The notes beneath the pieces are model-generated. The model was not told the origin of the DNA, ran no database searches, and saw only the letters and a program-made list of their open reading frames with translations. Positions 20,465-37,390 of a DNA stretch of 64,000 nt are shown piece after piece. Positions within the stretch are counted from its first letter, which is position 1. Each line of letters begins with the position of its first letter. Source of the DNA: Brevundimonas lenta (GTDB lineage Bacteria > Pseudomonadota > Alphaproteobacteria > Caulobacterales > Caulobacteraceae). Made by a program: the position numbers and the translations under genes. Where the stretch lies: NCBI RefSeq assembly GCF_014196335.1, contig NZ_JACIDM010000001.1:930001-994000 (forward strand), in the 5' to 3' direction.

Positions 20465-20563
20465 GAAAGGATCTCCCGTCCGGCGCGGACGCTAGCGCGC
20501 CCTGCAGCCGGTGTCTCGCCTCCCGCGCCGGAACCGCCACGCTTGGCCGCCGTTGCTCCGCTT

Positions 20564-21262
20564 ATGGACATGAACGACCTGCCCGGCTTCACCCTGCCGT
20601 TGCTCGCCGCCGTGCTGGCCGGCGGTCTCATCGGCTTCGAGCGCGAATGGCGCGGCCGCGCCGCGGGCTTCCGCACCCATATCCTCGTCTGCCTCGCCTC
20701 CGCCCTGCTGATGGAGGCGGCGGTGTCCCAGGCCGCCTGGCGCTTCGCCGGCGTCGAGGGGGCGAACATCGTCAGCGATCCGGCCCGCCTGGCTCACGGC
20801 GTCCTGACGGGCATCGGCTTCCTCTGCGCCGGCGTCATCTTCCGCTCCGGCTTCTCTATCCACGGCCTGACCACGGCGGCCTCATTGTGGATCACCGCGG
20901 CCATCGGCCTGCTGTTCGGCGCCGGCCTCTACGGCCTGGCCGGCGTCGGCACGATCCTGACCATGCTCATCCTCGTCGCCCTGCGGCTGGTCAGTCTGCA
21001 GTTGCCGCAGAAGGCGGTGGTCGATGTCGAGGTGAACTGGCGGCGCGACGCCGTCGGCGCCGAGGACCGTATCGAGGCCGCGCTGGGCGGTCTGGACCGC
21101 GCCCGCCGCGCGGATCGCTTCGAACTGGTCGACGGCGGGGAATCCCTCCGCCGCACCTTCCGGCTGAAGGTCGACGGCGAACCGGCCCTGAAGGCTCTGG
21201 CCGCCCGTTTCCGCAGCATCGACGGCGTCACCGGCTACACCCTCGACCCGCGCGACGACTGA
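20564..21262 (+). CDS. MgtC/SapB-family membrane protein (first of a tandem pair)
   Basis: About 232 residues with four to five membrane helices in the first 140 residues and a soluble C-terminal domain. The conserved MgtC core is present: GGLIGFEREWRGRAAGFRTH, ARLAHGVLTGIGFLCAGVIF and GLTTAASLWITAAIGLLFGA. MgtC proteins act in low-magnesium adaptation and modulate ATP synthase or K+ homeostasis in several bacteria. The ATG at 20564 or 20570 is plausible; a TTG at 20543 is also in frame, and no strong ribosome-binding site decides. A paralogue follows at 21332 with about 70 bp between them. Confidence 0.88.
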   Translation: MDMNDLPGFTLPLLAAVLAGGLIGFEREWRGRAAGFRTHILVCLASALLMEAAVSQAAWRFAGVEGANIVSDPARLAHGVLTGIGFLCAGVIFRSGFSIHGLTTAASLWITAAIGLLFGAGLYGLAGVGTILTMLILVALRLVSLQLPQKAVVDVEVNWRRDAVGAEDRIEAALGGLDRARRADRFELVDGGESLRRTFRLKVDGEPALKALAARFRSIDGVTGYTLDPRDD

Positions 21263-21331
21263 CGGCGGCTTGATCGTTTCGCCCGGAGCGGCCTAGGCTC
21301 CTCTTTTCGTCAGTCGGCGGAGCGAATTGGG

Positions 21332-22021
21332 TTGATGAACTGGGATCTGATCTGGCCGGTCGTCGCGGCCATGACGGCCGGGGGGCTGATCGGGATCGAG
21401 CGCACCTACCACGGGCATCCGGCGGGCTTCCGGACCCACATCCTCGTCTGCCTGACCAGTTGCGTTCTGATGCTCGCCGCCATGCACCAGGCGACCTGGG
21501 CCTTCACCGCCCTGCCGGGACAGAATGTGGTCATCGACCCCACCCGCATGTCGCACGGCCTGCTGACCGGGATCGGCTTCCTCTGCGCCGGCGTCATCTT
21601 CCGCGAAGGCTTCTCGGTCCACGGCCTGACCACGGCGGCGTCGCTCTGGGTGACCTCGGCCATCGGCGTCCTGTTCGGCGTCGGCATGCTGAACCTCGCC
21701 CTGCTCGCCGCCGGGTCGACCCTGGCCGTGCTCGCCGTCCTGCGCCTGCTGGACGCCAAGCTTCCCCACATCGGGGTCATCGACGTCGTGCTGCGCTGGA
21801 AGCGCGGCGCCGCCCCCGGTGAGCCGAAGGTGCGCGAGCTGCTGAACGGCTCCGGCATGAAGGCTGTCCGCCTCGGCCACGTCATCTGTCAGGACGGCGC
21901 GCTGCACGAGCACCACATGAAGGTGAAGGGCCCCATGCCGATGGATATCGACGGCCTGGTGACCCGCCTTTCGGCCGAAGCCGGCCTCGCCGGATTCTCG
22001 GTTCTGCCCCGCGACGAATGA
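21332..22021 (+). CDS. MgtC/SapB-family membrane protein (second of a tandem pair)
   Basis: About 229 residues, with the same helical core as its upstream neighbour: GGLIGIERTYHGHPAGFRTH, HGLLTGIGFLCAGVIFREGF and GLTTAASLWVTSAIGVLFGV. The C-terminal soluble domain (from about 150) is different (VLRWKRGAAPGEPKVRELLN, ICQDGALHEHHMKVKG). The cores are so alike that a tandem duplication followed by divergence of the regulatory domain is the simplest history. The start is a TTG at 21332 (CGGAG nine bases upstream) or the next codon ATG at 21335. It precedes the giant autotransporter gene by about 240 bp. Confidence 0.88.
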   Translation: MMNWDLIWPVVAAMTAGGLIGIERTYHGHPAGFRTHILVCLTSCVLMLAAMHQATWAFTALPGQNVVIDPTRMSHGLLTGIGFLCAGVIFREGFSVHGLTTAASLWVTSAIGVLFGVGMLNLALLAAGSTLAVLAVLRLLDAKLPHIGVIDVVLRWKRGAAPGEPKVRELLNGSGMKAVRLGHVICQDGALHEHHMKVKGPMPMDIDGLVTRLSAEAGLAGFSVLPRDE

Positions 22022-22263
22022 GGCGTTTCGCGCCCTCAAAACCACAGAACATCGTTCGTCCGTAGCCCGATAAAGTAGTGCCAAAACGGCACACTCCACA
22101 CGCCTGTCGCGATTCTTAACCTTGACCGTTTACGGTTCGCCGACCAATGGTTGCAGCCGCGTGGGCAGAGGCGGGTGGCGTGAATTCTGCTCTGGGGTGA
22201 AACGGCTGGCCGAAAGGGGACACTGATCCCCTCCATCGCGCGCGAGCCATTGGGGGCGATGAG
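22022..22263. promoter_or_regulatory. Upstream region of the giant autotransporter
   Basis: These 242 bp carry no gene. A small hairpin GTGCC-aaaac-GGCAC at 22078-22092 could end the mgtC transcript. At 22116-22130 there is TTAACCTTGACCGTT, which recurs with two changes upstream of the gene at 61390 (61325-61339). It overlaps a possible -35 (TTGACC, 22122-22127) without a convincing -10. GGGGG at 22252-22256 is the likely ribosome-binding site for the ATG at 22264. Confidence 0.4.
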
Positions 22264-25200
22264 ATGTCGAACACTACGCGCGAAGCGTCGAGGTTTGTGC
22301 GGGCTGCGGCCCTGGTTCATCAACTCGCGGCATCGACGGAGGCCTCTCGTCTCCCGAAGGCCCAGGCCGACGCGGTCTGCGAACAGATCGACGAACTGGT
22401 CACCCTGCTGGACCGCCGACGCGACAGCGACGCGCGCACCCTCGCCGACGCCCTGCTGACGCTGCGGGTCGCCCTGACCTCGGTCGGCAAGCGCGCGCGC
22501 GAACGCCGCGCCGACGTCGCCAACAACCGCAAGCTCGGTCGCACCCTGCGCCGCATCGCCATGATCATCGCCGCCGTCGGCGCGGTCGCCAGCCCCATGG
22601 CCGCCGCAGCCGCCGATCGCAGCGACGACTCCTCGTTCAACGACGCGCCCGTCACTTCGGCCTTCAAGTCGTCCCTTCTGTCGGGCACCGCCCTCAGCCC
22701 GCTGGCCTCGCCCACGGCCGGTCTGCCGGACGGCCCGCAGGCGATGCTCCCGGTGCCCGCCGTCGGCGGCACCATCTTCAACCCGGTCACCAACGCCAAC
22801 GAGACCGTGGTCGAGATCCTGAATCCGACCGCCGTCCGCACCAACCTGAACAACGTCATCCTGCTGGCCAACACCGTGGGCGACGTCATCCCCAATCCGG
22901 CCGGGGGCAATTTCACCGTCACCGCCGTGAACCTCGACGGCGACGGCCATGTCGTCAGCCTGAACGTCATCAATGCGGCCAGCGTCGCCTCGACCCTCGC
23001 GCGCGTCTCGGCCATCACCACGGCCCCGGGCGCGCCTGCGGGCGGCCCGCTGACCCTGCCGGCGGGAGCCGGTGATCTCGGCTATGTGCATGACATCCGT
23101 CGCGGCAACGGCGGCGGCGGCGGTCGTGACGGCGCGCTGTTCGTGTCCGCCAACTCCGGCGGCGACGGCCAGGCCGGGCCGACCTTCAACGTCAACGCGG
23201 GCTCCTCGGGCTCCGGCGTCACCACCGTCTCCAACGGCGTGGCCGGCGTCATGGGCGCCAGCATCGGCGGCAACGGCGGCAACGGCGGCGACGGCTATCT
23301 GGGCGCCTCGGGCGCCTCGGGCGGCAACGGCGGCGCCGGCGGCAATGTCACCGTCACCTCCAATTTCAGCACCATCTCGACCACCGGCGTCGCCTCGCAC
23401 GGCGTCGTGGCCCAGAGCCGCGCCGGCATCGGCGGCGAAGGCGGCTCGGGCTTCGTCTTCTCCAGCGGCGGTTCGGGCGGCTCGGGCAGCACCGGCGGCA
23501 CGGCCACGGCGATCAACTACAGCACCATCTCCACCACGGGCGCGGGCTCCCACGGCGTGTTCGCCCAAAGCCTGGGCGGCGGCGCCGGATCGGGCGGCGG
23601 CAGCTACGGCCTGTTCGGCGATGGCGGCGCGGGCAACCGCGGCGGCCAGGGCGGCCATGCCGAGGCGATCAACTACGCGCGTGTGACCACGACCGGCGAC
23701 GCCTCGTTCGGCGTCACGGCCCAGAGCGTGGGCGGCATCGGCGGCGACGCCGGCAACGCCGTCGGCCTCGTCACCTTCTCCGACGACGGCGCCCCGGGCG
23801 GCGACGGCGGCACGGCCATTGTCCGGGCCCGCACCGGATCCGAGGTCTACACCAGCGGCAATGCGGCCCACGCCCTGTTCGCCCAGTCGATCGGCGGCGG
23901 CGGCGGAAACGGCGGCCTCAGCCTCGGTCTCGCCTCGCTCGGCTCGGGCGGCGGCACCGGCGGCGCCGGCGGCTCGGCGCAGATCGACGCCTGGGATTCG
24001 ACCATCGTCTCGACGACCGGCGTCTCGTCCCACGGCCTGTTCGCCCAGTCGATCGGCGGCGGCGGCGGCAACGGCGGCATCAGCGGCGGCCTGGTCGTCG
24101 CCATCGGCTCCGAAGGCGCCAGCGGCGGTCTCGGCGGCGCGGTGACGGTCAGTTCCGGGGCGACGATCACGACCACCGGTCTCGGCTCGCGCGGCCTGTT
24201 CGCCCAGTCCATCGGCGGCGGCGGCGGCAACGCCCTCGGCTCCGGCGGCCTGGTGTCGCTCGGCGGATCGGGCGGCGGCGCGGGCGGCGCGGGGACGGTC
24301 AACGTCACCACCAGCGGGGCGAGCGTGATCTCGACCCAGGGCGTCGGCGCGGACGGCATCTTCGCCCAGTCGGTCGGCGGCGGCGGCGGCTCCGGCTCGG
24401 CCAGCGGCGGCGTCGTCGCCCTCGGCGGCACGGGCGGCGTGGGCGGCAACGGCAATACGGTCACCGTCGACAACGGCGGCTCGGTCTCGACCACCGGCGA
24501 CTTCGCGCGCGGCGTCTTCGCCCAGTCGGTCGGCGGCGGCGGCGGCGCCGGCGGCGACAGCGGCGGCCTGGTCACCCTCGGCGGCAACGGCTCGGGCCTG
24601 AGCACCGGCGGCGACGTCACCGTCACCAACCGCGGCGCGGTCAGCACCGCCGGCGACATCGCCAGCGCCCTGCAGGTCCAGTCGATCGGCGGCGGCGGCG
24701 GCGACGGCGGCTCCTCCGGCGGCGTCTTCCTGACCATCGGCGGCGCCGGCGGCGGCGGCGGCCGCTCCGGACTGGTGACGGTCAACAACCACCACGACCT
24801 TTCGACCGGCGGCAACGACTCGCACGGCATCTTCGCCCAGTCGGTCGGCGGCGGCGGCGGCAACGGCGGCTCGACCGTCTCGATCAGCGCCTTCGCGGGC
24901 GCCGCGGTCGGCGGCTCCGGCGGCGCTGGCGGCGACGGCGGCCTGGTCGACGTCAACCTGTTCGATCGCACCCTGGCCGTCGGCGGCGGCAGCCAGACCT
25001 TCTCGCCCCTGATCATGACGACCGGCGACCGGTCGCGCGGCATCTTCGCCCAGAGCGTGGGCGGCGGCGGCGGCAACGGCGGCTTCGCGGCCCAGGTCTC
25101 GGCCGGCTACGGCATCAGCGCCAGCGTCGCCGTCGGCGGCTCGGGCGGCGGCGGCGGCATCGGCAACACCGTCACCCTGGACGGCGACGCCACGATTCTG

Positions 25201-28200
25201 ACGTCCGGCGACTATTCCGAAGGCATCTTCGCCCAGTCGGTGGGCGGCGGCGGCGGCAACGGCGGCTTCGCCATGTCCTTCTCGTTCGCGGCCGGCGAGA
25301 CCGCCGCGGCGGCCTTCGGCGTGGCCGTCGGCGGTTCGGGCGGCACAGGCGGCGCCGGGGGCGCGGTCACCGTCAACTCGGGCGGCTCGATCCAGACCAC
25401 CGGCGACTTCTCGACCGGCTTCCTGACCCAGTCGGTCGGCGGCGGCGGCGGCAACGGCGGCTTCGCCGTGGCCTTCAGCGGCTCCGGCGCGGGCGTGGCC
25501 TCGGCCGCGGCCTCGGTCGGCGTCGGCGGTTCGGGTGGTGACGGCGGCATCGGCGGCACAGTCATCTCCCACTTCGACGGGACGATTCTGACCGGCGGCG
25601 ACGACTCCCGGGCGGCCCTGATCCAGTCGGTCGGCGGCGGCGGCGGCAACGGCGGCTTCAGCGTCGCGGGCGCGGTCTCGGTCTCCGGCACGGCCGGCGT
25701 GGCCGGCGCGGTCGGCGTCGGCGGCTACGGCGGCGGCGGCGGCGCGGGCGGAAACGTCACCGGCAGCGTCGGCGGGGCGGTCCAGACCACGGGCGACCGG
25801 TCGGCGGGCGTCACCATCCAGAGCGTGGGCGGCGGCGGCGGCTCGGGCGGCTTCAACATCTCCGGCAGCATCGGCGGCGGCGGCACCTTCGGCGGCGGCG
25901 TGTCCGTCGGCGTGGGCGGCTCCGGCGGCGGCGGCGGCGCGTCGGGCGTCGTCAACGGCACGGCCGGCGGAACCATCCTGACCACGGGCGACCAGTCCGG
26001 CGGCCTGATCGTCCAGAGCGTGGGCGGCGGCGGCGGTTCGGGCGGCTTCAACATTTCCGGCAGCATCGGCGGCGGCGGCACGGTCGGCGGCGCGCTGTCC
26101 GTCGGCGTCGGCGGCGCGGGCGGCGGCGGCGGTTCGGCCGGCGCTGTCACGGGCGCGGCCCTCGGCGCGGTCGAGACGCGCGGGGCCCAGTCGGCGGGCG
26201 TCACCATCCAGTCGATCGGCGGCGGCGGCGGCTCGGGCGCCTTCAACGTCTCGGGCGGCATCGGCGGCGGCGGCACGGTCGGCGGCGCGATCTCGGTCGG
26301 CGTCGGCGGCTCCGGCGGCGGCGGCGGGACCGGCGGAGACGTCACCGCCTCCTCGGTCGGGATCCTGACCTCCGGCGACCAGTCGGCCGGCTTCCTGGCG
26401 CAGAGCGTCGGCGGCGGCGGCGGCAACGGCGGCTTCAACGTCGCCGGCAGCATCGGCGGCGGCCAGACCGCGGGCCTCGGCCTCACGGTCGGCGTCGGCG
26501 GCTCGGGCGGCACGGGCGGAAGCAGCGGCACGGTCACCGCCACGGTCACCGGCAACGTCTCCACCACGGGCGCCCAGTCCGACGCCATCACCGCCCAGAG
26601 CGTGGGCGGCGGCGGCGGCAACGGCGGCTTCAACGTCGCCGGCAGCATCACCGGCGCCCAGACCGGCGCGGCCTCGATGTCGGCCGGCGTCGGCGGCTCG
26701 GGCGGCGGCGGCGGCTCGGCCGGCGCGGTCAGTCTGACCCACACCGGCGCGACCTCGACCACCGGCGCGGACAGCGACGGCGTCATCGCCCAGTCGGTCG
26801 GCGGCGGCGGCGGCAACGGCGGCTTCAACGTCACCGGCAACATCGCCTTCGCCCAGAGCGGCGCGGGCACGCTGGGCATCGGCGTCGGCGGCATGGGCGG
26901 CGACGGCGGCGACGGCGGCGCGGTCACCCTGAACCTCAACACGGGCGTCGCGGACCCCTCCAACACCCTGATCGCGGCCTGGACCACCGGCGCCAATGCG
27001 CGCGGCGTGCTGGCCCAGTCGGTCGGCGGCGGCGGCGGCAACGGCGGCTTCACCGTCACCGGCGGCCTGTCCGGCGCCCAGACGGCCGCGGGCAACGTCG
27101 GCTTCGGCATCGGCGGCGGCGGCGGCGACGGCGGCGACTCGGCCGCGGTGATCGGCAACATCAACGGCGACGTCCGCACCGACGGCCTGGAGTCGGCCGC
27201 CATCCTCGTCCAGAGCGTGGGCGGCGGCGGCGGCAACGGCGGCTTCAACATCTCGGGCGGCATCGCCGGCTCGCAGACGACCGCCGGCAATCTGATGGTC
27301 GGCGTCGGCGGCTTCGGCGGCGCGGGCGGCGACTCCGGCGCGGTCAGCGGGACCGTCACCAGCCACATCGCCACCCTCAGCGACCGCTCGTCCGGCCTGA
27401 CCTACCAGAGCCTCGGCGGCGGCGGCGGCAACGGCGCCTTCAACGTCACCGGCGGTATCGCCCTGGCCGGCAGCGGCGGCGGCACCGGCAATATCGGCGT
27501 CGGCATCGGCGGCTTCGGCGGCGACGGCGGCGACGCCTCGACGGTCACTCTCACCTACACCGGCGGCATCTCGACCCGCGGCGACGATTCCTGGGGCGCG
27601 CTCGCCCAGTCGGTCGGCGGCGGCGGCGGCAACGGCGGCTTCAACATCACCGGCGGCCTCAGCGCCTCCAGCAGCATGAGCGGCACGCTCGGCTTCGGCC
27701 TCGGCGGCTTCGGCGGCGGCGGCGGCAATGCCGGCGCGGTCACCGCCTCGCTGACCGGCGACGTCGGCACGCTCGGCAACGGCTCCTACGGCGCCATGCT
27801 GCAGAGCCTCGGCGGCGCGGGCGGCAACGGCGGCTTCAACGTCACCGGCTCGGTGGCCCTGTCGGTCACCAGCAGCCCGGCGGTCACCGTCGGCATCGGC
27901 ATCGGCGGCTTCGGCGGCGGCGGCGGCGACGCCGGCGCGGTCACCGGCACCGTCATCGGCGACTACGTCACCCGCGGCGACAACGCCGACGGCGTCACGG
28001 CCCAGTCGGTCGGCGGCGGCGGCGGCAACGGCGGCCTCAACGTCACCGGCAACATCTCGCTCAGCTCGGGCACGGCCGGCACGGTCGGCATCGGCATCGG
28101 CGGCTTCGGCGGGGCCGGCGGCGACTCCGGCGTGGTCACCTTCAGCTACACCGGCGACATCGACACCGACGGCGCGAACTCGGACGGCCTGATCGTCCAG

Positions 28201-31200
28201 AGCCTGGCGGGCGGCGGCGGCAACGGCGCCATCAACGTCACGGGCGGCATCGCGGCCAGCACCAGCGGCACGGCCGGCGGCCTCGCCTTCGGTCTGGGCG
28301 GCTTCGGCGGCGACGGCGGCAACGCCTCCGATGTGACCGCCTCGATCACCGGCAACGTCTGGGCCCGCGGCCTGTCGAACGACGAGCTGATCCCGGCCGA
28401 GACCACCATCGGCATCCTGCCGGGCTCATGGGACGACACCTATATCCCGCCGCACCGCATCCGCGAGAACGGCTCCAACGGCATCGTCGTGCAGAGCATC
28501 GGCGGCGGCGGCGGCAACGGCGGCCTGAACGTCTCCGGCCAGATCTCCCTGACGCCTCCGGGCGGCAGCCAGGCGGCCCGCTCGGTCACCCTCGGCGTCG
28601 GCGGCTTCGGCGGCGGCGGCGGCGACGCCGGCAACGTCACCATGACCTTCGGCTCGCCGGACGCGACCCGCGTCCAGGCCAGCGCCATCGGCGACAACCG
28701 CTCGGCGGTCATCGTCCAGTCGGTCGGCGGCGGCGGCGGCGCGGGCGGCATAAACATCTCCGGCGGCATCGCCATGGACGGCGTCCTGACCGCCGGCATC
28801 GGCGGCTTCGGCGGCTCGGGCGGCATCGGCCGCGACGTGCTGGCGAACATCGACGCCGACATCTTCGCCTCGGGCAACCTGTCGCGCGGCCTGATGATCC
28901 AGTCGATCGGCGGCGGCGGCGGCGCGGGCGCCATCAACATCTCGGGCGGGCTCAGCGCCGATCCGAACGGCACCGAGCCCTCGCTGACCTTCGGCCTCGG
29001 CGGCTTCGGCGGCGCGGGCAACATCAGCGGCGACGTCACCGCCACCCAGCACGGCCAGGTCGTGGTCGAGGGCGCGGGCGCCATCGGCGTGCTGGTCCAG
29101 AGCGTCGCCGGCGGCGGCGGCTCGGGCGGCCTCAACGTCACGGCCGACATCCACCTCGGCGAGGGCGGCTCCAACGCCCGCACCGAGGGCGTGGCCATCG
29201 GCGTCGGCGTCGGCGGCACGGGCGGCGACGGCGCGGACGCGGGCGACGTCTCGCTGCACAGCGTCGGCAACATCTTCATGAACGCGCGTCCGGTGGTCAG
29301 CCCGCCGGTGGGCGGCCAGCCCTTCGAAGGCATTGATTTCGCAGCCGATGCGCCCGGCGTCCTGGTCCAGTCGATCGGCGGCGGCGGCGGCGTGGGCGGC
29401 GTCAACGTCACCGGCGTGGTCGCGCCCTTCGGCCAGCCGGCCGCCATCGGCGTCGGCGGTTCGGGCGGCTCCGGCGGCAACGCCGGCACGGTCGACGTGG
29501 TCCGCGGCTATGTCGGCTCCGGCCCGGCCGAGACCGAACAGCGCCGGCTGATCCGCACCTTCGGCGATCACTCGGACGGCCTCGTCGCCCAGTCGATCGG
29601 CGGCGGCGGCGGCCGCGCGGGCGTCAATGCGGTCTTCGCCCTGACCACGCACTCGCCGGGCAACAACCCGATGGCGGCCCTGATCGCCGTCGGCGGCTCG
29701 GGCGCGGGCGCCGGCAGCGGCGAGGACGTCACCGTCCGCCACGCCGGCGACATCATGACCTCCGGCGTCGATTCCGACGGCATCTTCGCCCAGTCGGTCG
29801 GCGGCGGCGGCGGCGACGCCAACTACAACATCGGCTTCGGCGTGCTGCGCAACGCCACCGCCCTGAACCTCGCCGTCGGCGGGGCCACCGGCGCGGGCGG
29901 CACCGGCGCCGACGTCTCTGTCGAGCACCACGGCGTCATCGTCACCGAGGGCCGCTCCTCGGCCGGCATCCACGCCCAGTCGCTGGGCGGCGGCGGCGGC
30001 GACACCGTGCTGGATCTGGCGCTGGGCATCCTCGCCAACCATTCGGTCGGCATCACCGTCGGCCGCCACGGCGGCACCGGCGGATCGTCGGGCGATGTCT
30101 CGGTCGTCGCCGACGGCACCATCCAGACCTCGGGCGAGACCGCGGACGGCATTCTGGCCCAGTCCATCGGCGGCGGCGGCGGCGACAGCAGCGCCACCAC
30201 CGTTTCGGCCTCGACCACCAGCGGCGCCAACACGCCCCAGGCCGAGTCCTACAGCGCGGGCGTGTCCGTCGGCCTCGACGGCGGTGTCGGCGCCTTCTCC
30301 GGCGACGTCAGCGTCGATGTCGCGGGTCACATCACCACCTCGGGCTATGAGGCGCGCGGCGTCTTCGCCCAGTCCATCGGCGGCGGCGGCGGTCGCGGCG
30401 GTTCGGCCGCCAACGCCATCGTCCGTGCGGCGGGCGCAGCCACGGTCACCGTCGGCGGCACCGGCGGCACGGGAGCCATCTCCGGCGACGTCACCGTCGA
30501 CAGCGACGCGACCATCGTCACCACCGGCCACCGGTCGGACGGCATCCTCGCCCAGGCCATCGGCGGCGGCGGCGGCACCGGCGGCGTGGCCCGCACCCTG
30601 GCCTTCCAGGTCGGCGGTCCGCCGCCCACGACTACGACCCGCACCCTGTCGGTCAACGTCGGCGGCTCCGGCGGCACCGGCGCGGTCGGCGGCGGCGTCG
30701 ACGTCACCAACACCGGCGTCATCGCCACCGAAGGCGAATACTCGCACGGCATCCGCGCCCAGTCGGTCGGCGGCGGCGGCGGCATCGGCGGCATGGTCCT
30801 GAACGCGGCCCTGCAGTACCGCGGCAGCGACGACATCGACTTCAACCTCGGCGGCTCGGGCGGAACCGGCGGCGCCGGCGGCGCGGTCAGCGTCCTGAAC
30901 GAAGGCCTGATCTTCACCGAAGGCCGCTTCGCCACCGGCATCAGCGCCAACAGCATCGGCGGCGGGGGCGGCGACGCCGGCCTCGTGCTCGACGTCCAGC
31001 TCGGCTACGCCGGCATGGACAACCAGACCCATCGCCTCGTCGTCAACATCGGCGGCTCGGGCGGCGACGGCGGCGTCGGCGGCGCGGTTTCGGTCATCAA
31101 CCGTCCGGTCACGGGCGAAGACCACACGGGCGAGATCGTCACCCGGGGCGAGGGCGCCTACGGCATCTTCGCCCAGAGCCTGGGCGGCGGCGGCGGCAAC

Positions 31201-34200
31201 GGCTCCAGCGTCCTGTCGCTGACCGGCATGATCACCGGCCGCGACAGCGCCCTGGTCGGCCTCAACGTCGGCGGCGTCGGCGGCACCGGCAACACCGGCG
31301 GCACGGTCACCGTCCTCAATGAGGGCCTGATCGACACCACCGGCGCGGGCGCCCACGGCATCCTCGCCCAGTCGATCGGCGGCGGCGGCGGCAACGGCGG
31401 CATCGCCTTCGCGGCCAACCTGCTGATTTCGCCCACGACCCAGATCCTCAACCACGCGCCCCTCGTCACCCTCGGCGGCTTCGGCGGCGACGGCGGCGAC
31501 GGCGGCTCGGTCACGGTCACCAACTCGGGCGACATCGTCACCCGCGGCGCGGGCGCCCACGGCATCCTCGCCCAGTCGATCGGCGGCGGCGGCGGCAACG
31601 CCCAGATGGGCTTCGGCCTGACCTCCGACATCGGCAGCATGGTCCTGTCGCACGCCGTCTCGGCCCTGATCGGCAACCTCGGCGGCGGAACCGGCGGAAC
31701 CGGCGGCTCGGTCACCGTCAACCACTCCGGCGACATCACCGTCCTCGGCGAAGGCTCGCAGGCCATCATCGCCCAGAGCGTGAACGGCGGCGGCGGTCAC
31801 CTGACCTTCGACTTCAGCGGCATCACCGGCCTGACCGGCTCGCCCTTCATCGACCTGCACGGCGCAACCGTGACTCCGGACCCCATGGTCCTGGGCCGCG
31901 CGGGCGCCGCGGGCGCGGTGAACATGAGCTCGGGCCTGGTCCACACCAACACCACCGGCACCTTCCAGGTCGGCGGAAACAACGGCGTCGCCAGCCTGAC
32001 CCAGGCCATCGGCGGCGGCGGCGGCTCGCTGATCATGCGCGCTGTCATTGCGCCGCTGACGGTTTCGCCGTCCCCGGCGCCCCTGGTCTCGCCGCTTGAG
32101 GCCGCTGACAAGGACACCGGCCCCGAGGTCTCGCCGCTGGCGGTTCCGATGGCCGATCCGTTCGCGGCGCCGGGTGATCCGGTCGCCATTCCGTTCGAGC
32201 TCGTTCTCGGCGGCGTCAACGGCGTCAACAACAACGGCGGCGGCATCAACAGCGTCCACTCCGGCGCCATGCTCACCACCGGCCTTAACTCGCCGGCGGT
32301 GCTGGTGCAGTCGGTCGGCGGCGGCGGCGGCATCGGCCTGCTCGACCTCACGGTCACGGCCGGCGGCCTCGTCGGTCCGCTCGACGTCACCCTCGGCGGT
32401 TCGGGCGGCCTCAACGAATCCGGCGGCGCGGTCTCGCGCACCAACGCCGGCGGCATCGTCACCACCGGCGACCTGTCGCCCGCGGCCGTGATCCAGAGCA
32501 TCGGCGGCGGCGGCGGCTCGGCCAGCGTGGTCCTGCAGGGCCCCGGGGCGACCAACGTCGCGCTCACCGGCGTGCTCGGCGCCGACGGCGGATCCAACCT
32601 CAACGGCGGCGCGGTCACCGGCCTCTTCACCGGCGGCGTCCAGACCTTCGGCGACTACGCCCTGGGCCTCTTCGCCCAGTCGGTCGGCGGCGGCGGCGGC
32701 GAGCTCCGCCTGTCCGGCGTCTCGACCCTGGCGGCGACGCTGGGCGGCTCGGCGGGCGCGCAAGGCGACGGCGGCTCGGTCTCGCTGACCAACACCGGCC
32801 AGATCGGCACCGTCGGCGACCACGCCCACGCGGTCATGCTGCAGTCCATCGGCGGCGGCGGCGGCGCGGTGTTCGGCGCCTTCGCCCCGACCGTCGCGCT
32901 CAGCAGCGACAACACCGGCGACGGCGGGGCGATCAGCTTCACCCAGGTCGGCAACGTCATCACCGAGGGCGACAACGCCTACGGCGTCATCGCCCAGAGC
33001 CTGGGCGGCGGCGGCGGCTGGATCGAGGGCGGCTTCCGCGGCACGGCCGGCGGCGCCGGCGCGGGCGGCGCAATCGACCTCGACCTCTCGGGCGCGGTCT
33101 TCTCGGCCGGGACCAACTCGGTGGCGATCTTCGCCCAGAGCCTCGGCGGCCTCGGCGGCGGCGACATCTCCATCGCCTCGAACGGCTTCGTCCGCGGCGG
33201 CACGGGAACCGGCGCCGGCGTGCGGATCGACGGCGGGGCGAACAACGTCGTCACGACCTCCGGTTCGATCTCGGCCGTCTCCGGCCTGGCGATCGACGCC
33301 ACCACCGGCCAGGACACCGTCAACAACGACGGTCTGGTCGTCGGCAACATCGACCTCGGCCTCGGCGACAACGCCTTCAACAACCGCCTCGGCTCGACCT
33401 TCGTCGCCTTCAACACCATCGACCTGCGCGATGCGGCCGGCGACAGCGGCGTCTACACCAACTCGGGCGACTTCCTGATGGGGCTCAGCGCCTCGCGGGT
33501 GCCGATCGACCTGTCGGCGGGCGAGACCTTCGCCAACCTCGACCTCGAGGGCGATCCGTCGGTCAACATCATGTACGGCTCGCGCGTCATCAACACGGTC
33601 GCCCTCGACGGCGACTATGTGCAGACCAACAGCGGCCACCTGGCCTTCGACATCGCCTTCGGTCCCTATGCTTCGGATCGGGTGAACGTCACCGGCGACG
33701 CCACCGTCGACGGGACCGGCGAGGTCATCCTGACCTGGCTGGAGAACGACGACCGCCGCACCCTGTTCGCCACGGGCGGCAACGGCTTCGACAACGGTCT
33801 GGAGATCGCCGACACCCTGGCGATGGACTACAGCGTCAGCGCCGACACCGACGGGGTCCACCTGTCGTTCGTCAGCAACTTCGGCCAGCCGTTCCTGAAC
33901 CGGAACGAGCGCAACCTCGGCCGCCACATGGACTTCGCCATCCAGGCCGGCGGTTCGTCGGGCATCGGCCAGCTGATGGCCCTGCTCGGCAACATGCAGG
34001 CCGGCGACGAAGACGCCTACGCGGCCGTATTCCACGAACTGAACCCCGAACCCCTGATGGCGCCGCTGGTCACCCAGCTGAACGCCGCCGAAGGCTTCGC
34101 CGGCCAGCTGTTCAGCTGCGTCTCGCCGGTCTTCGAGGTCACGGAACAGTGCGTCTGGGCCCGCGTCGAAGGCTCGAACTTCGAGCGTCAGGGCGATTTC

Positions 34201-34977
34201 GAGCACTTCGGGATCCGCAGCCAGGAAATGCGCCTGCGCACGGGCTTCGAAACCCCGCTGTCCGACGGCTGGTCGTTCGCGGCCGCCCTCGGCTACGACA
34301 AGCTCGACCCGATCACCATCGAGGACCGCGCCCGCACCGACGGCAAGGGCTTCCACGGCAGCTTCGGCGTCCAGCATCGCGACTATGAAGGCCTGCAGGC
34401 CGGAACGTCGCTGTCGGGCGGCTACCAGTGGGCGGACGCGGTTCGCGGCGTGAACGTGTTCGAACCGCTGGTCGGCACGTCGCGGTCGGAGAGCGGCTAC
34501 CTCCAGGCCAACGCCTATGCGGCCTGGCTGATGCGCAGCGGAAACGTCTTCCTGCGCCCGGCCATCAACCTCTCGGCCACGGCCCTGCGCCAGAACAGCT
34601 TCTCGGAAGAGGGGTTGGAGGGGCTCGGCGTCCAGGCGCTGTCCAACACCCAGGTGTTCGGCACGGCGGCCCCGGAGGTCTCGCTCGGCTTCGTCCTGCG
34701 CGACGACACCGCGGCCCAGTCGACGCTGGTCTTCACCGCCGGCGGCGTGTTCCGCTCCGAGGACGAGGTGCGCATGCCGTACCGCCTGCTCGGTTCCAAC
34801 CCCGACGCCTTCCCGGCCATGATCGGCAGCGCCCTGGAACAGGAGGCCTGGCGCGTCGGCGCTGACCTCCGTCTCGCCACCGGCAACGGCGTCGAGCTCA
34901 GCGCCACCGCCAGCGCCGAGTTCGGCGATCGCAGCGACAGCCAGCAGGCCGGCGTGAACCTGCGGATCCGCTTCTAG
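22264..34977 (+). CDS. Giant Gly-rich repeat autotransporter (type V secretion), 4237 residues
   Basis: One uninterrupted frame. Residues 1-75 are a helical, charged N-terminal extension. Residues about 76-97 are strongly basic (KRARERRADVANNRKLGRTL), and 98-117 are the hydrophobic core and AAAA signal cleavage site. A Gly/Ser/Thr-rich passenger follows, with about 51 copies of a motif centred on QS(V/I/L)GGGGGNGG spaced about 65 residues apart. From about residue 3700 a non-repetitive stalk (NNVVTTSGSISAVSGLAIDA, LDGDYVQTNSGHLAFDIAFG) leads to a C-terminal beta-barrel of about 280 residues (from CVWARVEGSNF) that ends RIRF with the terminal Phe expected for BAM-dependent insertion. Two Cys (LFSC, EQC) flank the barrel entry. 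The passenger should be displayed on the cell surface; its role (adhesion, biofilm or surface layer) is inferred. No protease or release motif was recognised. Confidence 0.93.
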   Translation: MSNTTREASRFVRAAALVHQLAASTEASRLPKAQADAVCEQIDELVTLLDRRRDSDARTLADALLTLRVALTSVGKRARERRADVANNRKLGRTLRRIAMIIAAVGAVASPMAAAAADRSDDSSFNDAPVTSAFKSSLLSGTALSPLASPTAGLPDGPQAMLPVPAVGGTIFNPVTNANETVVEILNPTAVRTNLNNVILLANTVGDVIPNPAGGNFTVTAVNLDGDGHVVSLNVINAASVASTLARVSAITTAPGAPAGGPLTLPAGAGDLGYVHDIRRGNGGGGGRDGALFVSANSGGDGQAGPTFNVNAGSSGSGVTTVSNGVAGVMGASIGGNGGNGGDGYLGASGASGGNGGAGGNVTVTSNFSTISTTGVASHGVVAQSRAGIGGEGGSGFVFSSGGSGGSGSTGGTATAINYSTISTTGAGSHGVFAQSLGGGAGSGGGSYGLFGDGGAGNRGGQGGHAEAINYARVTTTGDASFGVTAQSVGGIGGDAGNAVGLVTFSDDGAPGGDGGTAIVRARTGSEVYTSGNAAHALFAQSIGGGGGNGGLSLGLASLGSGGGTGGAGGSAQIDAWDSTIVSTTGVSSHGLFAQSIGGGGGNGGISGGLVVAIGSEGASGGLGGAVTVSSGATITTTGLGSRGLFAQSIGGGGGNALGSGGLVSLGGSGGGAGGAGTVNVTTSGASVISTQGVGADGIFAQSVGGGGGSGSASGGVVALGGTGGVGGNGNTVTVDNGGSVSTTGDFARGVFAQSVGGGGGAGGDSGGLVTLGGNGSGLSTGGDVTVTNRGAVSTAGDIASALQVQSIGGGGGDGGSSGGVFLTIGGAGGGGGRSGLVTVNNHHDLSTGGNDSHGIFAQSVGGGGGNGGSTVSISAFAGAAVGGSGGAGGDGGLVDVNLFDRTLAVGGGSQTFSPLIMTTGDRSRGIFAQSVGGGGGNGGFAAQVSAGYGISASVAVGGSGGGGGIGNTVTLDGDATILTSGDYSEGIFAQSVGGGGGNGGFAMSFSFAAGETAAAAFGVAVGGSGGTGGAGGAVTVNSGGSIQTTGDFSTGFLTQSVGGGGGNGGFAVAFSGSGAGVASAAASVGVGGSGGDGGIGGTVISHFDGTILTGGDDSRAALIQSVGGGGGNGGFSVAGAVSVSGTAGVAGAVGVGGYGGGGGAGGNVTGSVGGAVQTTGDRSAGVTIQSVGGGGGSGGFNISGSIGGGGTFGGGVSVGVGGSGGGGGASGVVNGTAGGTILTTGDQSGGLIVQSVGGGGGSGGFNISGSIGGGGTVGGALSVGVGGAGGGGGSAGAVTGAALGAVETRGAQSAGVTIQSIGGGGGSGAFNVSGGIGGGGTVGGAISVGVGGSGGGGGTGGDVTASSVGILTSGDQSAGFLAQSVGGGGGNGGFNVAGSIGGGQTAGLGLTVGVGGSGGTGGSSGTVTATVTGNVSTTGAQSDAITAQSVGGGGGNGGFNVAGSITGAQTGAASMSAGVGGSGGGGGSAGAVSLTHTGATSTTGADSDGVIAQSVGGGGGNGGFNVTGNIAFAQSGAGTLGIGVGGMGGDGGDGGAVTLNLNTGVADPSNTLIAAWTTGANARGVLAQSVGGGGGNGGFTVTGGLSGAQTAAGNVGFGIGGGGGDGGDSAAVIGNINGDVRTDGLESAAILVQSVGGGGGNGGFNISGGIAGSQTTAGNLMVGVGGFGGAGGDSGAVSGTVTSHIATLSDRSSGLTYQSLGGGGGNGAFNVTGGIALAGSGGGTGNIGVGIGGFGGDGGDASTVTLTYTGGISTRGDDSWGALAQSVGGGGGNGGFNITGGLSASSSMSGTLGFGLGGFGGGGGNAGAVTASLTGDVGTLGNGSYGAMLQSLGGAGGNGGFNVTGSVALSVTSSPAVTVGIGIGGFGGGGGDAGAVTGTVIGDYVTRGDNADGVTAQSVGGGGGNGGLNVTGNISLSSGTAGTVGIGIGGFGGAGGDSGVVTFSYTGDIDTDGANSDGLIVQSLAGGGGNGAINVTGGIAASTSGTAGGLAFGLGGFGGDGGNASDVTASITGNVWARGLSNDELIPAETTIGILPGSWDDTYIPPHRIRENGSNGIVVQSIGGGGGNGGLNVSGQISLTPPGGSQAARSVTLGVGGFGGGGGDAGNVTMTFGSPDATRVQASAIGDNRSAVIVQSVGGGGGAGGINISGGIAMDGVLTAGIGGFGGSGGIGRDVLANIDADIFASGNLSRGLMIQSIGGGGGAGAINISGGLSADPNGTEPSLTFGLGGFGGAGNISGDVTATQHGQVVVEGAGAIGVLVQSVAGGGGSGGLNVTADIHLGEGGSNARTEGVAIGVGVGGTGGDGADAGDVSLHSVGNIFMNARPVVSPPVGGQPFEGIDFAADAPGVLVQSIGGGGGVGGVNVTGVVAPFGQPAAIGVGGSGGSGGNAGTVDVVRGYVGSGPAETEQRRLIRTFGDHSDGLVAQSIGGGGGRAGVNAVFALTTHSPGNNPMAALIAVGGSGAGAGSGEDVTVRHAGDIMTSGVDSDGIFAQSVGGGGGDANYNIGFGVLRNATALNLAVGGATGAGGTGADVSVEHHGVIVTEGRSSAGIHAQSLGGGGGDTVLDLALGILANHSVGITVGRHGGTGGSSGDVSVVADGTIQTSGETADGILAQSIGGGGGDSSATTVSASTTSGANTPQAESYSAGVSVGLDGGVGAFSGDVSVDVAGHITTSGYEARGVFAQSIGGGGGRGGSAANAIVRAAGAATVTVGGTGGTGAISGDVTVDSDATIVTTGHRSDGILAQAIGGGGGTGGVARTLAFQVGGPPPTTTTRTLSVNVGGSGGTGAVGGGVDVTNTGVIATEGEYSHGIRAQSVGGGGGIGGMVLNAALQYRGSDDIDFNLGGSGGTGGAGGAVSVLNEGLIFTEGRFATGISANSIGGGGGDAGLVLDVQLGYAGMDNQTHRLVVNIGGSGGDGGVGGAVSVINRPVTGEDHTGEIVTRGEGAYGIFAQSLGGGGGNGSSVLSLTGMITGRDSALVGLNVGGVGGTGNTGGTVTVLNEGLIDTTGAGAHGILAQSIGGGGGNGGIAFAANLLISPTTQILNHAPLVTLGGFGGDGGDGGSVTVTNSGDIVTRGAGAHGILAQSIGGGGGNAQMGFGLTSDIGSMVLSHAVSALIGNLGGGTGGTGGSVTVNHSGDITVLGEGSQAIIAQSVNGGGGHLTFDFSGITGLTGSPFIDLHGATVTPDPMVLGRAGAAGAVNMSSGLVHTNTTGTFQVGGNNGVASLTQAIGGGGGSLIMRAVIAPLTVSPSPAPLVSPLEAADKDTGPEVSPLAVPMADPFAAPGDPVAIPFELVLGGVNGVNNNGGGINSVHSGAMLTTGLNSPAVLVQSVGGGGGIGLLDLTVTAGGLVGPLDVTLGGSGGLNESGGAVSRTNAGGIVTTGDLSPAAVIQSIGGGGGSASVVLQGPGATNVALTGVLGADGGSNLNGGAVTGLFTGGVQTFGDYALGLFAQSVGGGGGELRLSGVSTLAATLGGSAGAQGDGGSVSLTNTGQIGTVGDHAHAVMLQSIGGGGGAVFGAFAPTVALSSDNTGDGGAISFTQVGNVITEGDNAYGVIAQSLGGGGGWIEGGFRGTAGGAGAGGAIDLDLSGAVFSAGTNSVAIFAQSLGGLGGGDISIASNGFVRGGTGTGAGVRIDGGANNVVTTSGSISAVSGLAIDATTGQDTVNNDGLVVGNIDLGLGDNAFNNRLGSTFVAFNTIDLRDAAGDSGVYTNSGDFLMGLSASRVPIDLSAGETFANLDLEGDPSVNIMYGSRVINTVALDGDYVQTNSGHLAFDIAFGPYASDRVNVTGDATVDGTGEVILTWLENDDRRTLFATGGNGFDNGLEIADTLAMDYSVSADTDGVHLSFVSNFGQPFLNRNERNLGRHMDFAIQAGGSSGIGQLMALLGNMQAGDEDAYAAVFHELNPEPLMAPLVTQLNAAEGFAGQLFSCVSPVFEVTEQCVWARVEGSNFERQGDFEHFGIRSQEMRLRTGFETPLSDGWSFAAALGYDKLDPITIEDRARTDGKGFHGSFGVQHRDYEGLQAGTSLSGGYQWADAVRGVNVFEPLVGTSRSESGYLQANAYAAWLMRSGNVFLRPAINLSATALRQNSFSEEGLEGLGVQALSNTQVFGTAAPEVSLGFVLRDDTAAQSTLVFTAGGVFRSEDEVRMPYRLLGSNPDAFPAMIGSALEQEAWRVGADLRLATGNGVELSATASAEFGDRSDSQQAGVNLRIRF
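23413..33147 (+). repeat. About 51 in-frame Gly-rich repeats of ~195 bp in the autotransporter passenger
   Basis: I counted about 51 copies of a core resembling QS(V/I/L)GGGGG between 23413 and about 33147, with an average spacing near 195 bp (65 residues). Each unit also carries a GVGGSGG-like stretch and a closing I.TTGD.S.G segment. At DNA level the cores are runs of GGC codons. Units from about 25.8 to 28.3 kb are most alike (GGFN(I/V)(S/T)G after the core); those after 29.6 kb are more diverged. The last units (QSVNGGGG, TQAIGGGGG, QSLGGLGG) are degenerate. Confidence 0.92.
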
Positions 34978-34984
34978 AACCGGC

Positions 34985-35017
34985 CCCGGCCGTCGTCCCT
35001 CGCGGGCGGCGGCCGGG
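34985..35017 (+). terminator. Hairpin after the autotransporter gene
   Basis: CCCGGCCG at 34985-34992 pairs with CGGCCGGG at 35010-35017, eight bases after the autotransporter stop. No U-rich tract follows, so it is a weak candidate for intrinsic termination or an mRNA 3' stabiliser before ruvC. Confidence 0.42.
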
Positions 35018-35083
35018 CGCTGGTTTCAGGGCTCTCGACGCCGGTCATTGTCCGTTAGGCCTCTATCGGCAATAACGGAACGG

Positions 35084-35596
35084 ATGGCGAACGAACCGAC
35101 TCGCATTCTGGGACTGGATCCCGGCCTCAGGCGCACCGGATGGGGCGTCGTCGTGGCCGAAGGCTCGCGCCTGCGCTGGATCGCGCACGGCGTCGTCACC
35201 CCGCCCGAGACCGCCCCGCTCAGCGAACGCCTGCTGCATCTGCTCGACGCGCTCGGCGCCGTCTGCGCCGACTACGCTTGCGACGAGGCGGCGGTCGAGG
35301 AGGTGTTCGTCAACGTCAATCCGTCCTCGACGCTCAAGCTGGGCCACGCCCGCGCCGCCGTCATGCTGGCCCCGGCCCGCTGCGGCCTCAGCGTCGCCGA
35401 ATACTCGCCCAACCTCATCAAGAAGGCCGTCGTCGGCGCCGGCCATGCCGACAAGAGCCAGATCGCCTTCATGGTCAAACGCCTGCTGCCCGCCGCCGGA
35501 GACGTGAAGGCCGACGCCGCCGACGCCCTCGCCGTCGCCATCACCCACGCCCAGCTGCGCAGGATGAACCACCTCGCGATCCGGGGCACCGCATGA
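35084..35596 (+). CDS. ruvC: Crossover junction endodeoxyribonuclease RuvC
   Basis: A 170-residue Holliday-junction resolvase. The RNase H-like fold shows GLDPG (catalytic Asp12), [10 protein letters not shown] (Glu72) and [14 protein letters not shown] (Asp144, Asp147), the four acidic residues expected by alignment with E. coli RuvC. The ATG at 35084 starts the conserved sequence; an earlier in-frame GTG/TTG region (from 35048) lacks homology. It nicks junctions migrated by RuvAB. Its stop overlaps the ruvA ATG by 4 bp (ATGA), so ruvC and ruvA are coupled. The autotransporter gene ends about 107 bp upstream. Confidence 0.97.
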
Positions 35597-36210
35597 TCGG
35601 CCGTCTTCGCGGCGTCCTCGCCGAGGTCGAGCAGGACCACTGCCTGATCGACTGCGCCGGCGTCGGCTATGTCGTCGCCTGCGGGGCGCGCACCCTCCAG
35701 CGCCTGCCTGCGCCCGGCGACGAGGCGACCCTGCATATCGAACACCTCTGGAACGCCGAGAACGGCCCGCGCCTGTACGGCTTCCTGACCCGCGACGACC
35801 GCCGCGCCTTCACCACCCTGACCGGCATCCAGGGCGTCGGCCCCAAGGCGGCGCTCAGCGTGCTGGACGTCCTGCCGCCGGCCGAGTTGACCGCCGCCGT
35901 GGCGCGGGAGGACAAGGCCGCCGTCGCCCGCGCCAACGGCGTCGGCCCCAAACTGGCCCTCCGCATCGTCACCGAGCTGAAGGGCAAGTCGCTGGGCGAC
36001 ACCTCCTTCACCCCCTCAGCGCCCGGCGTCCACGCCGAGCTCGCCCCGCCGCCGCCCAGCATCACGGGCGAGGCCGTCTCGGCCCTGCTGGGTCTCGGTG
36101 TGGCCGAGGTCAACGCCCGCCGCGCCGTCGATCAGGCCCTGATCCGCCTCGGCGAGGACGCCGACCTCTCCGCCGTCATCCGCGCCGCCCTGCAGGAGCT
36201 GGGCCGGTGA
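35593..36210 (+). CDS. ruvA: Holliday junction branch migration subunit RuvA
   Basis: A 205-residue junction-binding protein. Domain I begins [14 protein letters not shown]. Domain II carries two helix-hairpin-helix motifs ([19 protein letters not shown] and [19 protein letters not shown]). A Pro-rich linker ([17 protein letters not shown]) leads to domain III ([19 protein letters not shown]), which contacts RuvB. It forms tetramers on four-way junctions. It is translationally coupled to ruvC through ATGA. Downstream, 145 bp rich in inverted GGGTCGA repeats separate it from ruvB, although ruvAB are often adjacent. Confidence 0.97.
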
Positions 36211-36349
36211 GGGTCGAGGGTCGAGGGTCGAGGGTCGAGGGGGTAGCGTCCTGCCGCACGGACGGCGCTCGCCTTGTCGCGCCTGATCAGCACCCGGCGC
36301 TCGCCCGCTTCGCCCCTCGACCCTCGCCTCTCGACCCTCGCCCGGGGAG
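36211..36349. repeat. Inverted clusters of GGGTCGA heptads between ruvA and ruvB
   Basis: Directly after the ruvA stop, 36211-36240 is four tandem copies of GGGTCGA. At about 36313-36340 the complementary form CCTCGACCCTCG...CTCGACCCTCG appears. The arms can pair into a hairpin with a roughly 75-nt loop that contains no ORF. This could be a terminator-like or attenuating structure, or simply a slipped low-complexity repeat. No ruvB promoter was assigned within it. Confidence 0.75.
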
Positions 36350-36355
36350 GGCGGC

Positions 36356-37390
36356 ATGACCGACGACCGCATCGTCTCCGGCCACCCCGCGCCCGGCGAG
36401 CCCTACGACCGCGCCCTGCGGCCCCAGACCCTGTCCGAGTTCGTCGGCCAGGAGCAGGCCAAGGGCAATCTGAAGATCTTCATCGACGCCGCCCGCGCCC
36501 GTCAGGAGGCGCTGGATCACGTCCTGCTGTTCGGTCCGCCCGGCCTCGGCAAGACCACCCTGGCCCAGATCGTCGCCCGCGAGCTGGGCGTCGGCTTCCG
36601 CGCCACCTCCGGCCCCATCCTCGCCAAGGCCGGCGACCTGGCCGCCATCCTGACCAATCTCGAACCGCGCGACGTGCTGTTCATCGACGAGATCCACCGC
36701 CTCGCCCCGGCGGTCGAGGAGATCCTGTACCCGGCCATGGAAGACCATGTGCTGGACCTGATCATCGGGGAGGGGCCCTCCGCCCGCTCGGTCCGCATCG
36801 ACCTCGCCCCCTTCACCCTCGTCGGCGCCACCACCCGCGCCGGCCTGCTGGCCACGCCGCTGCGCGACCGCTTCGGCATTCCGCTGCGGCTGGAGTTCTA
36901 CACCCCGGCCGAACTCACCCGCGTGGTCATGGGCGCGGCCCGCAAGATGGGCGCGGTCCTGACCGAGGATGGGGCCATGGAGATCGCCTCGCGCGCCCGC
37001 GGCACGCCGCGTGTCGCCGGCCGTCTGCTGCGCCGCGTCCGGGATTTCGCCACCGCCGAGGGCGCGGCCTCCATCGACAAACTGGTCGCCGCCCGCGCGC
37101 TGGCCCGGCTCGAGATCGACGAGGTCGGCCTCGACGCCAACGACCGCCGCTTCCTCAAGGCCCTGATCGAGAACTACGGCGGCGGCCCCGTCGGCATGGA
37201 CACCCTCGCCGCCGCCATCGCCGAGGCCCGCGACGCCGTCGAGGACGTCATCGAGCCCTATCTGCTGCAGCAGGGCTTCATCCAGCGCACCCCCCGCGGC
37301 CGCATGGCCTGCGCCCGCGCCTACAGCCACCTCGGCCTGACCGAGCCGCCCAAGGCTCCCCAGGCCGGCGACCTGTTCGGCGGCAAGTAG
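36356..37390 (+). CDS. ruvB: Holliday junction branch migration helicase RuvB
   Basis: A 344-residue AAA+ motor. Walker A is GPPGLGKT (residues 60-67), Walker B FIDEIH (Asp111-Glu112), sensor 1 lies in [12 protein letters not shown], and the Arg-finger region follows ([14 protein letters not shown]). A C-terminal winged helix comes last ([17 protein letters not shown]). It forms hexamers on either side of RuvA and drives branch migration. The N-terminus [15 protein letters not shown] is typical. The ATG at 36356 follows a GGGGAGG ribosome-binding site. The next gene starts 50 bp on. Confidence 0.97.

Follow-up and report, generated by a model that had tools for sequence, protein, structure and literature searches.

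The window, a 64,000-nucleotide stretch of the Brevundimonas lenta genome, carries a giant autotransporter gene, an uninterrupted plus-strand open reading frame whose ATG start comes after GGGGGCGATGAG (Table 1). Three congeneric homologues are open over comparable lengths. The two of them that were compared with the gene differ from it more often at third codon positions (0.45) than at the other two (0.29 and 0.22), and this excess indicates that the gene behaves as one encoding a protein under selection. Its composition is 74% GC, with a GC3 of 95%. Mirrored open frames occur on the minus strand (22036-27366 and 28426-34377), and an antisense reading of these was rejected because the GC3 explains their openness.

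The gene stands alone between a pair of mgtC genes and ruvC (22022-35047). At 18 of the 29 congeneric ruvC loci examined, a gene of this size would not fit, since mgtC lies no more than 1.5 kb from ruvC, and one homologue (in genome G060) is sited elsewhere, beside LacI and MFS genes. This looks like the gain of a single gene here: gene order in the compared genomes suggests an insertion between mgtC and ruvC, with other carriers having the gene at other sites.

Table 1. Coordinates of the autotransporter gene, its parts and its neighbours in the window
Feature	Position	Strand	Basis
Two MgtC-family genes (20543-21262 and 21332-22021)	20543..22021	+	PF02308, 3.8e-36 and 5e-35
Whole autotransporter gene, 4237 aa	22264..34977	+	open frame; congeneric homologues of 4239, 4057 and 4479 aa
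Long charged N-region ahead of the signal, aa 1-97	22264..22554	+	hydropathy scan, side-by-side sequences
Presumed Sec signal, a hydrophobic stretch with MAAAAA at its end, aa 98-117	22555..22614	+	sequence; hydropathy maximum at aa 98
Non-repeat N-terminal domain, aa 118-285, starting FNPVTNANETVVEIL	22615..23118	+	no Pfam or NCBIfam match; recognisable in genome G028
Degenerate glycine-rich repeats, aa 286-383	23119..23412	+	sequence
Array of 51 glycine-rich units, aa 384-3672	23413..33279	+	core motif
Nine short units (51-54 aa) without most arm-A strands, aa 384-858	23413..24837	+	unit spacing
15 central units, mostly 65 aa, number variable among homologues, aa 991-1978	25234..28197	+	unit spacing, homologue comparison
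Five modelled units, aa 1121-1444	25624..26595	+	AF2
Unit 27 (98 aa), zone B inserted loop at conserved position	28198..28491	+	94-98 aa at the equivalent place in homologues
Unit 31 (90 aa), zone B inserted loop at conserved position	29098..29367	+	83-90 aa at the equivalent place in homologues
Tapering terminal units (61-55-51-47), aa 3411-3672	32494..33279	+	unit spacing, AF2 C-terminal model
Non-glycine-rich beta stretch, autochaperone-like by position, aa 3673-3879	33280..33900	+	AF2 C-terminal model
Four helices ahead of the barrel, aa 3880-3946	33901..34101	+	AF2 C-terminal model
Cys3952/Cys3963 pair at the barrel junction	34117..34152	+	conserved in homologues
Translocator barrel, aa 3963-4237, C-terminal RIRF	34150..34974	+	PF03797; Foldseek
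ruvC (35048-35596), ruvA (from about 35593), ruvB (36356-37390)	35048..37390	+	Pfam/NCBIfam scans

By sequence and hydropathy scan, the candidate Sec signal consists of hydrophobic residues 98-112 followed by MAAAAA, with the N-region ahead of it. At about 97 residues, this region is longer than any extended signal known to us. A similar stretch is present in congeneric, Caulobacter and Sphingomonas homologues and is not evident in the Rhizobiales and Rhodobacterales homologues looked at.

The carrier is an ordinary autotransporter barrel, as the reading of the sequence alone (hereafter, the sequence-only reading) had claimed. A whole-protein hmmscan against Pfam and NCBIfam returned nothing, and the barrel was recovered only when pieces were scanned, with PF03797 matching at 1.8e-16 (61 bits against a cut-off of 26). 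The AF2 model of the C-terminal part (pLDDT 92.3, pTM 0.80) places an alpha-helical segment leading into the barrel, and Foldseek relates the model to EstA (3kvn, 2e-12), NalP (1uyo, TMt 0.87), AaaA, Hbp, EspP and BrkA. With the classical type Va autotransporters NalP, EspP, EstA and AaaA the protein shares the barrel family, the helical segment ahead of it, a large passenger and a terminal aromatic residue; it differs from them in its predicted repeat fold, its proposed rung of about 65 residues, its 51 units and its long region before the signal. The two cysteines at the barrel junction are invariant in six homologous sequences, show a conservation of 90% or more in a set of 29, and possibly form a disulfide at the barrel mouth.

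Glycine-rich units of the passenger

A loose motif scan of the protein finds 51 cores of the form QS(V/I/L)GGGGG between residues 384 and 3625, spaced 47-102 residues apart and most commonly 65. Glycine makes up 30% of the array. The sequence-only reading had described a 4237-residue autotransporter with about 51 glycine-rich repeats, each with a QS(V/I) core and GGX triplets, and this description is borne out by the open frame, the number of cores, the PF03797 barrel and the phase of the glycines. With unit numbering begun at the Q of QSVGGGGG, glycine occupies positions 33-40 at 98/98/x/89/74/x/87/85%, which is a GGX triplet phase. The unit length of about 65 residues given there holds as the modal spacing but not throughout, since the first nine units measure 51-54 residues, distal units measure 61-102, and the end tapers through 61, 55, 51 and 47. 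Its statement that the passenger is without cysteine is correct for the repeats: there is none from residue 281 to 3800, and the only cysteines in the protein are Cys39, which precedes the signal, and the pair at the barrel junction.

Units are 38% identical to one another on average and 71% at most, and the longest exact DNA repeat in the array is 56 bp. The array is therefore old and diverged, and tandem slippage as an artefact was rejected. Within the unit, a segment designated zone B is near-constant at 22 residues, with a Val/Ile core and a polar outside, and zone A ranges from about 5 to 29 residues. The zone B insertions of the long units would be natural candidates for ligand-binding loops.

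No Pfam or NCBIfam family matched the passenger repeats when the protein was scanned in pieces with HMMER, the filters of which penalise low complexity. The models covered include the PE family, and assignment of the repeats to a known adhesin family, one of the outcomes that would have contradicted the sequence-only reading, did not occur. Among PDB sequences, phmmer likewise gave nothing for the whole protein, and the repeats had no significant match.

Distribution and conserved order of the units

The C-terminal 611 residues are matched in 6 of 101 relatives (own genome included), all congeneric and three of them full-length. A C-terminal alignment of six sequences was too diverged to serve as a search query, and a profile of a three-unit alignment was used instead. 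This profile found 5 of 399 genomes in a sample of the phylum and 5 of 385 in a sample of the class, the own genome being counted in each, and at least 78 loci in a named genome collection. The listed carriers are Caulobacter, Sphingomonas, Novosphingobium, Paracoccus, Ruegeria, Mesorhizobium, Maricaulis and some beta- and gammaproteobacteria; single MAG contigs bearing labels of other phyla, taken here as given, also match. The phage collection yielded no match to the protein. Among the matches listed, full-length homologues span 3.2-6 kaa and some exceed 6000 aa. The family is sparse across Alphaproteobacteria, with some other contigs, and the protein is neither unique nor the largest, so that the earlier description of it as one of the largest type V passengers is right about its giant size but has to be set beside these longer relatives.

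Reciprocal best matching pairs single units with their orthologues in other genera, in the same order along the array. Colinear reciprocal best matches number 42 in the homologue of G060, 44 in that of G028, 40 in a Caulobacter locus (L026) and 32 in a Caulobacteraceae MAG (L031); the 20 found in a gammaproteobacterial MAG (L034) are colinear too. Most of these cross-protein matches outscore the best paralogue within the studied protein. Unit order is looser in the G024 and Ruegeria homologues. The spacing of the cores also recurs as a series at many loci: six or more spacings of 51-54, then 71, 61 and a run of 65s; then 95-98, 75, 61, 66, 83-90, 70-74, 67, 62 and 61; and, at the end, 61, 55 and 52. 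What varies most among homologues is the count of central 65-mers. Single units thus occupy the same places in different genera, which shows that a long repeat array need not evolve fast.

Three Novosphingobium loci (L056, L072 and L098) have 67-77 very regular units of 61-62 residues, apparently a recently expanded variant. A contig of Synechococcus sp. UW140 (L075) carries an open reading frame that is truncated at both ends and still exceeds 4600 aa; its cores are similar but less glycine-rich, and are mostly spaced 51-65 residues apart.

Probable stacking of the units

The AF2 model of five consecutive units, built with 67 alignment rows, is all beta, with five strands per unit (pLDDT 96.0, pTM 0.87). 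AF2 can be overconfident on repeats. Strand makes up more than half of each unit, and both GGX stretches lie outside the strands. Foldseek found no PDB match to this model at E<=0.001, and all TM scores were about 0.05-0.1. The top match, a springtail polyproline-II bundle (7jjv, E 8.5e-3, probability 0.06), is a hint only, and beta-helices are among the other weak matches. The viral library gave no real match, its one match below 0.001 having a TM score of 0.08.

Most autotransporter passengers are beta-helical, and an ordinary right-handed parallel beta-helix of the pertactin type, with about three rungs of ~22 residues per unit and glycine-rich loops, would also account for the VTVTNSGDIVTTGAGAHGILAQ part of each unit, which resembles one such rung, and for the beta-helices among the weak matches. 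However, an ordinary beta-helix modelled at pLDDT 96 is expected to match many solved beta-helices strongly. A confident model with no such match thus disfavours this fold, and the couplings between positions, described below, run at constant sum rather than constant separation. We consider the multi-rung helix quite improbable and rejected it. In this respect the sequence-only reading, which had set the passenger apart from a classic pertactin-type helix, is upheld by the missing beta-helix match, by the missing constant-separation coupling and by the shift-0 coupling between units. The model of five consecutive units is confident and gives no ordinary beta-helix, so that the result which this reading had named as contrary to its proposal, a confident prediction of such a helix, did not occur.

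Coupling was analysed by a mean-field method, independently of AF2, on 540 distinct 65-residue units (Meff 429). Seven of the ten top within-unit couplings fall on two antiparallel ladders (i+j=44 or ~112), against 0.67 expected. The pairs 10-34, 13-31, 17-27 and 19-25 sum to 44 (arm A), and 47-65, 49-63, 45-65 and 53-63 sum to 110-116, about 112 (arm B). Constant separations of 18-27, as a multi-rung helix needs, show no clear enrichment in the 540 units. Because the ladders were picked after looking, in the very data used for testing, the proteins were split by similarity group for a retest; the half-splits and the 61-residue units mitigate this circularity. In each of the 40 halves so obtained, the sum of 44 was the best of 22 antidiagonals, and in 37 of the 40 the arm B peak fell within 110-116. 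Maxima from column shuffles stayed below the arm A value and approached the arm B value. In the independent set of 61-residue units, the ladder lies at a sum of 40, as predicted, and in 66-residue units at 47, which is compatible with sum-46 pairs moved by one. The predicted shifts were not clearly recovered in 52-, 54-, 62- and 64-residue units, where depth is lower.

Between adjacent units, coupling occurs at shift 0 (2.75 sd) and at the same ladder pairs. The shift-0 coupling declines to 1.64 for second neighbours and then to 0.94 and, for fourth neighbours, 0.82, with distant or random partners at -0.08. Tandem duplication accounts for part of this as a confounder of the coupling between neighbours. 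First and second neighbours are near-equal in identity (0.572 vs 0.567) despite the drop from 2.75 to 1.64. Together, the antiparallel ladders and the shift-0 coupling indicate that one unit is one rung, in two layers that stack in register. We hold a solenoid of one rung per unit to be quite likely, counting together the two ways in which its halves might be arranged.

In one of these arrangements, zone B (strands 45-56 and 61-68) supplies a single short rung of each unit to a beta-helix spine, and the glycine-rich half forms a stacked side wing. This arrangement fits a zone B of near-constant length with a Val/Ile core next to a zone A of variable length, and it differs from a flat slab solely in how the halves join. 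The coupling 10-34/10-36, however, carries the arm-A ladder on through the GGX stretches, and we regard the spine with a wing as unlikely, though these data do not firmly separate it from the slab.

A further alternative is that the sequence is of low complexity, GC-rich and mostly disordered, the model confidence being artefactual. The glycine, GC and GC3 values given above are what such a sequence would have, but position-specific coevolution with controls, unit orthology colinear over 40 units, and the lower rate of change at codon positions 1 and 2 than at position 3 make this reading very improbable.

Along the arm-A strands (unit positions 13-32; 25660-25719 in the first modelled unit), Ser/Ala/Gly predominate on one face and Val/Ile/Leu/Gly on the other. 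It is on the small-residue face that the coupled arm-A pairs sit, which suggests that the hydrophobic face may point outward.

A candidate surface plate and its counterparts

The AF2 model and the coevolution signal together favour, with moderate confidence, a passenger that is a giant flat two-layer solenoid on a type Va autotransporter, each unit of about 65 residues forming one rung. Layer 1 would comprise a strand (61-65 and 1-3), a GGX stretch (4-11), a strand (13-21) and a turn (22-23), and layer 2 a strand (24-32), a GGX stretch (33-44), a strand (45-56) and a turn (57-60) into the following unit. Adjacent units would be stacked residue on residue, with the two GGX stretches opposed mid-slab, probably in polyglycine-II conformation. 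The GGX triplets are in phase and outside the strands, and are thus compatible with what polyglycine II requires; from this phase we infer that true polyglycine II within the solenoid is likely. The first and last units are short and lack the outer arm-A strands, so the slab would be narrow at both ends. If about 50 rungs follow one another at the customary step of ~4.8 A, the plate would measure ~25 nm in length and some 9-10 nm across, whereas a chain of equal length wound into a normal helix of 22 residues per rung would form a needle of ~70 nm.

The comparison with the polyglycine-II-like repeats of mycobacterial PE_PGRS proteins, drawn in the sequence-only reading, therefore stands for the triplet phase of GGX and its place outside the strands, but not for the rest of the unit or for kinship. 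The two systems share GGX triplets and, as supposed here, a flat sail-like shape and surface display, and AlphaFold predicts flat PGII sandwiches for PGRS too (PMC9436101). In contrast, no PE domain turned up when the whole protein and its N-terminal piece were scanned with Pfam, strand occupies over half of each unit in the AF2 model, and stacking is parallel and in register. PE_PGRS proteins have neither barrel nor beta layers, their PGII helices are antiparallel, and their export is different. Unit positions here are fixed across genera, with 40-44 colinear orthologues in congeneric and Caulobacter homologues, whereas PGRS domains are described, in the same source (PMC9436101) and in other abstracts, as polymorphic and tolerant of large indels. 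That the passenger is a member or a convergent copy of these sandwiches is scarcely credible, and membership was rejected for the missing PE domain, the strand-rich units and the fixed array. Of the earlier suggestion of a different surface fold on a standard barrel, the barrel is confirmed, and the fold survives as a predicted composite beta/GGX solenoid that is not related to PE_PGRS.

Other counterparts are more distant or more partial. The springtail antifreeze polyproline/polyglycine-II bundle shares Gly-Gly-X packing with the units; it is a small all-PPII bundle without beta strands, has no homology to the studied protein, and carries disulfides. Pertactin and Hbp share a beta-rich solenoid, a cysteine-free passenger and presumed vectorial folding from the C-terminus. 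Unlike theirs, of about 20-25 residues, the rung proposed here has about 65 and contains GGX every time, and Foldseek gave no match. It would also have the largest perimeter of any solenoid rung that we can name.

After Sec export and barrel insertion, the unfolded, cysteine-free and glycine-rich chain would be translocated from C- to N-terminus. Folding would proceed outside the cell one rung at a time, the conserved tapering terminal units first and each later unit docking on the rung before it. This would yield a stiff plate, anchored at the cell surface and showing a few loops at conserved positions, and a role as adhesin or shield is somewhat probable. If this is correct, it adds a protein fold and a natural lattice with polyglycine II and beta sheet in one register, and it opens to testing how a chain of more than 4000 residues, free of cysteine and rich in glycine, folds without ATP after crossing the outer membrane. 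The chances are about even that it represents a new solenoid class, with two antiparallel layers, each of beta strand, polyglycine II and beta strand, some 50 in-register rungs and an ordinary barrel, sparse but widespread in Proteobacteria and without a counterpart among solved structures.

Literature on the motif, on glycine-rich passengers and on PGII in autotransporters yielded no description of the family; Rhizobium leguminosarum AutA-C was considered and rejected, as the paper concerns smaller proteins. Homologues on plasmid records, with the same repeat unit and barrel, occur in Sinorhizobium meliloti pSymB (WQP25485.1, 2288 aa) and Loktanella salsilacus (WP_254253140.1, 4984 aa). These are named 'autotransporter outer membrane beta-barrel domain-containing protein' or 'hypothetical protein', and their function is undescribed in the papers found. 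With annotations of only this kind, the surface-structure family is effectively undescribed. In S. meliloti (L020:1687-3608), the homologue has genes for a LytTR regulator and a histidine kinase beside it, which are possibly its dedicated control pair.
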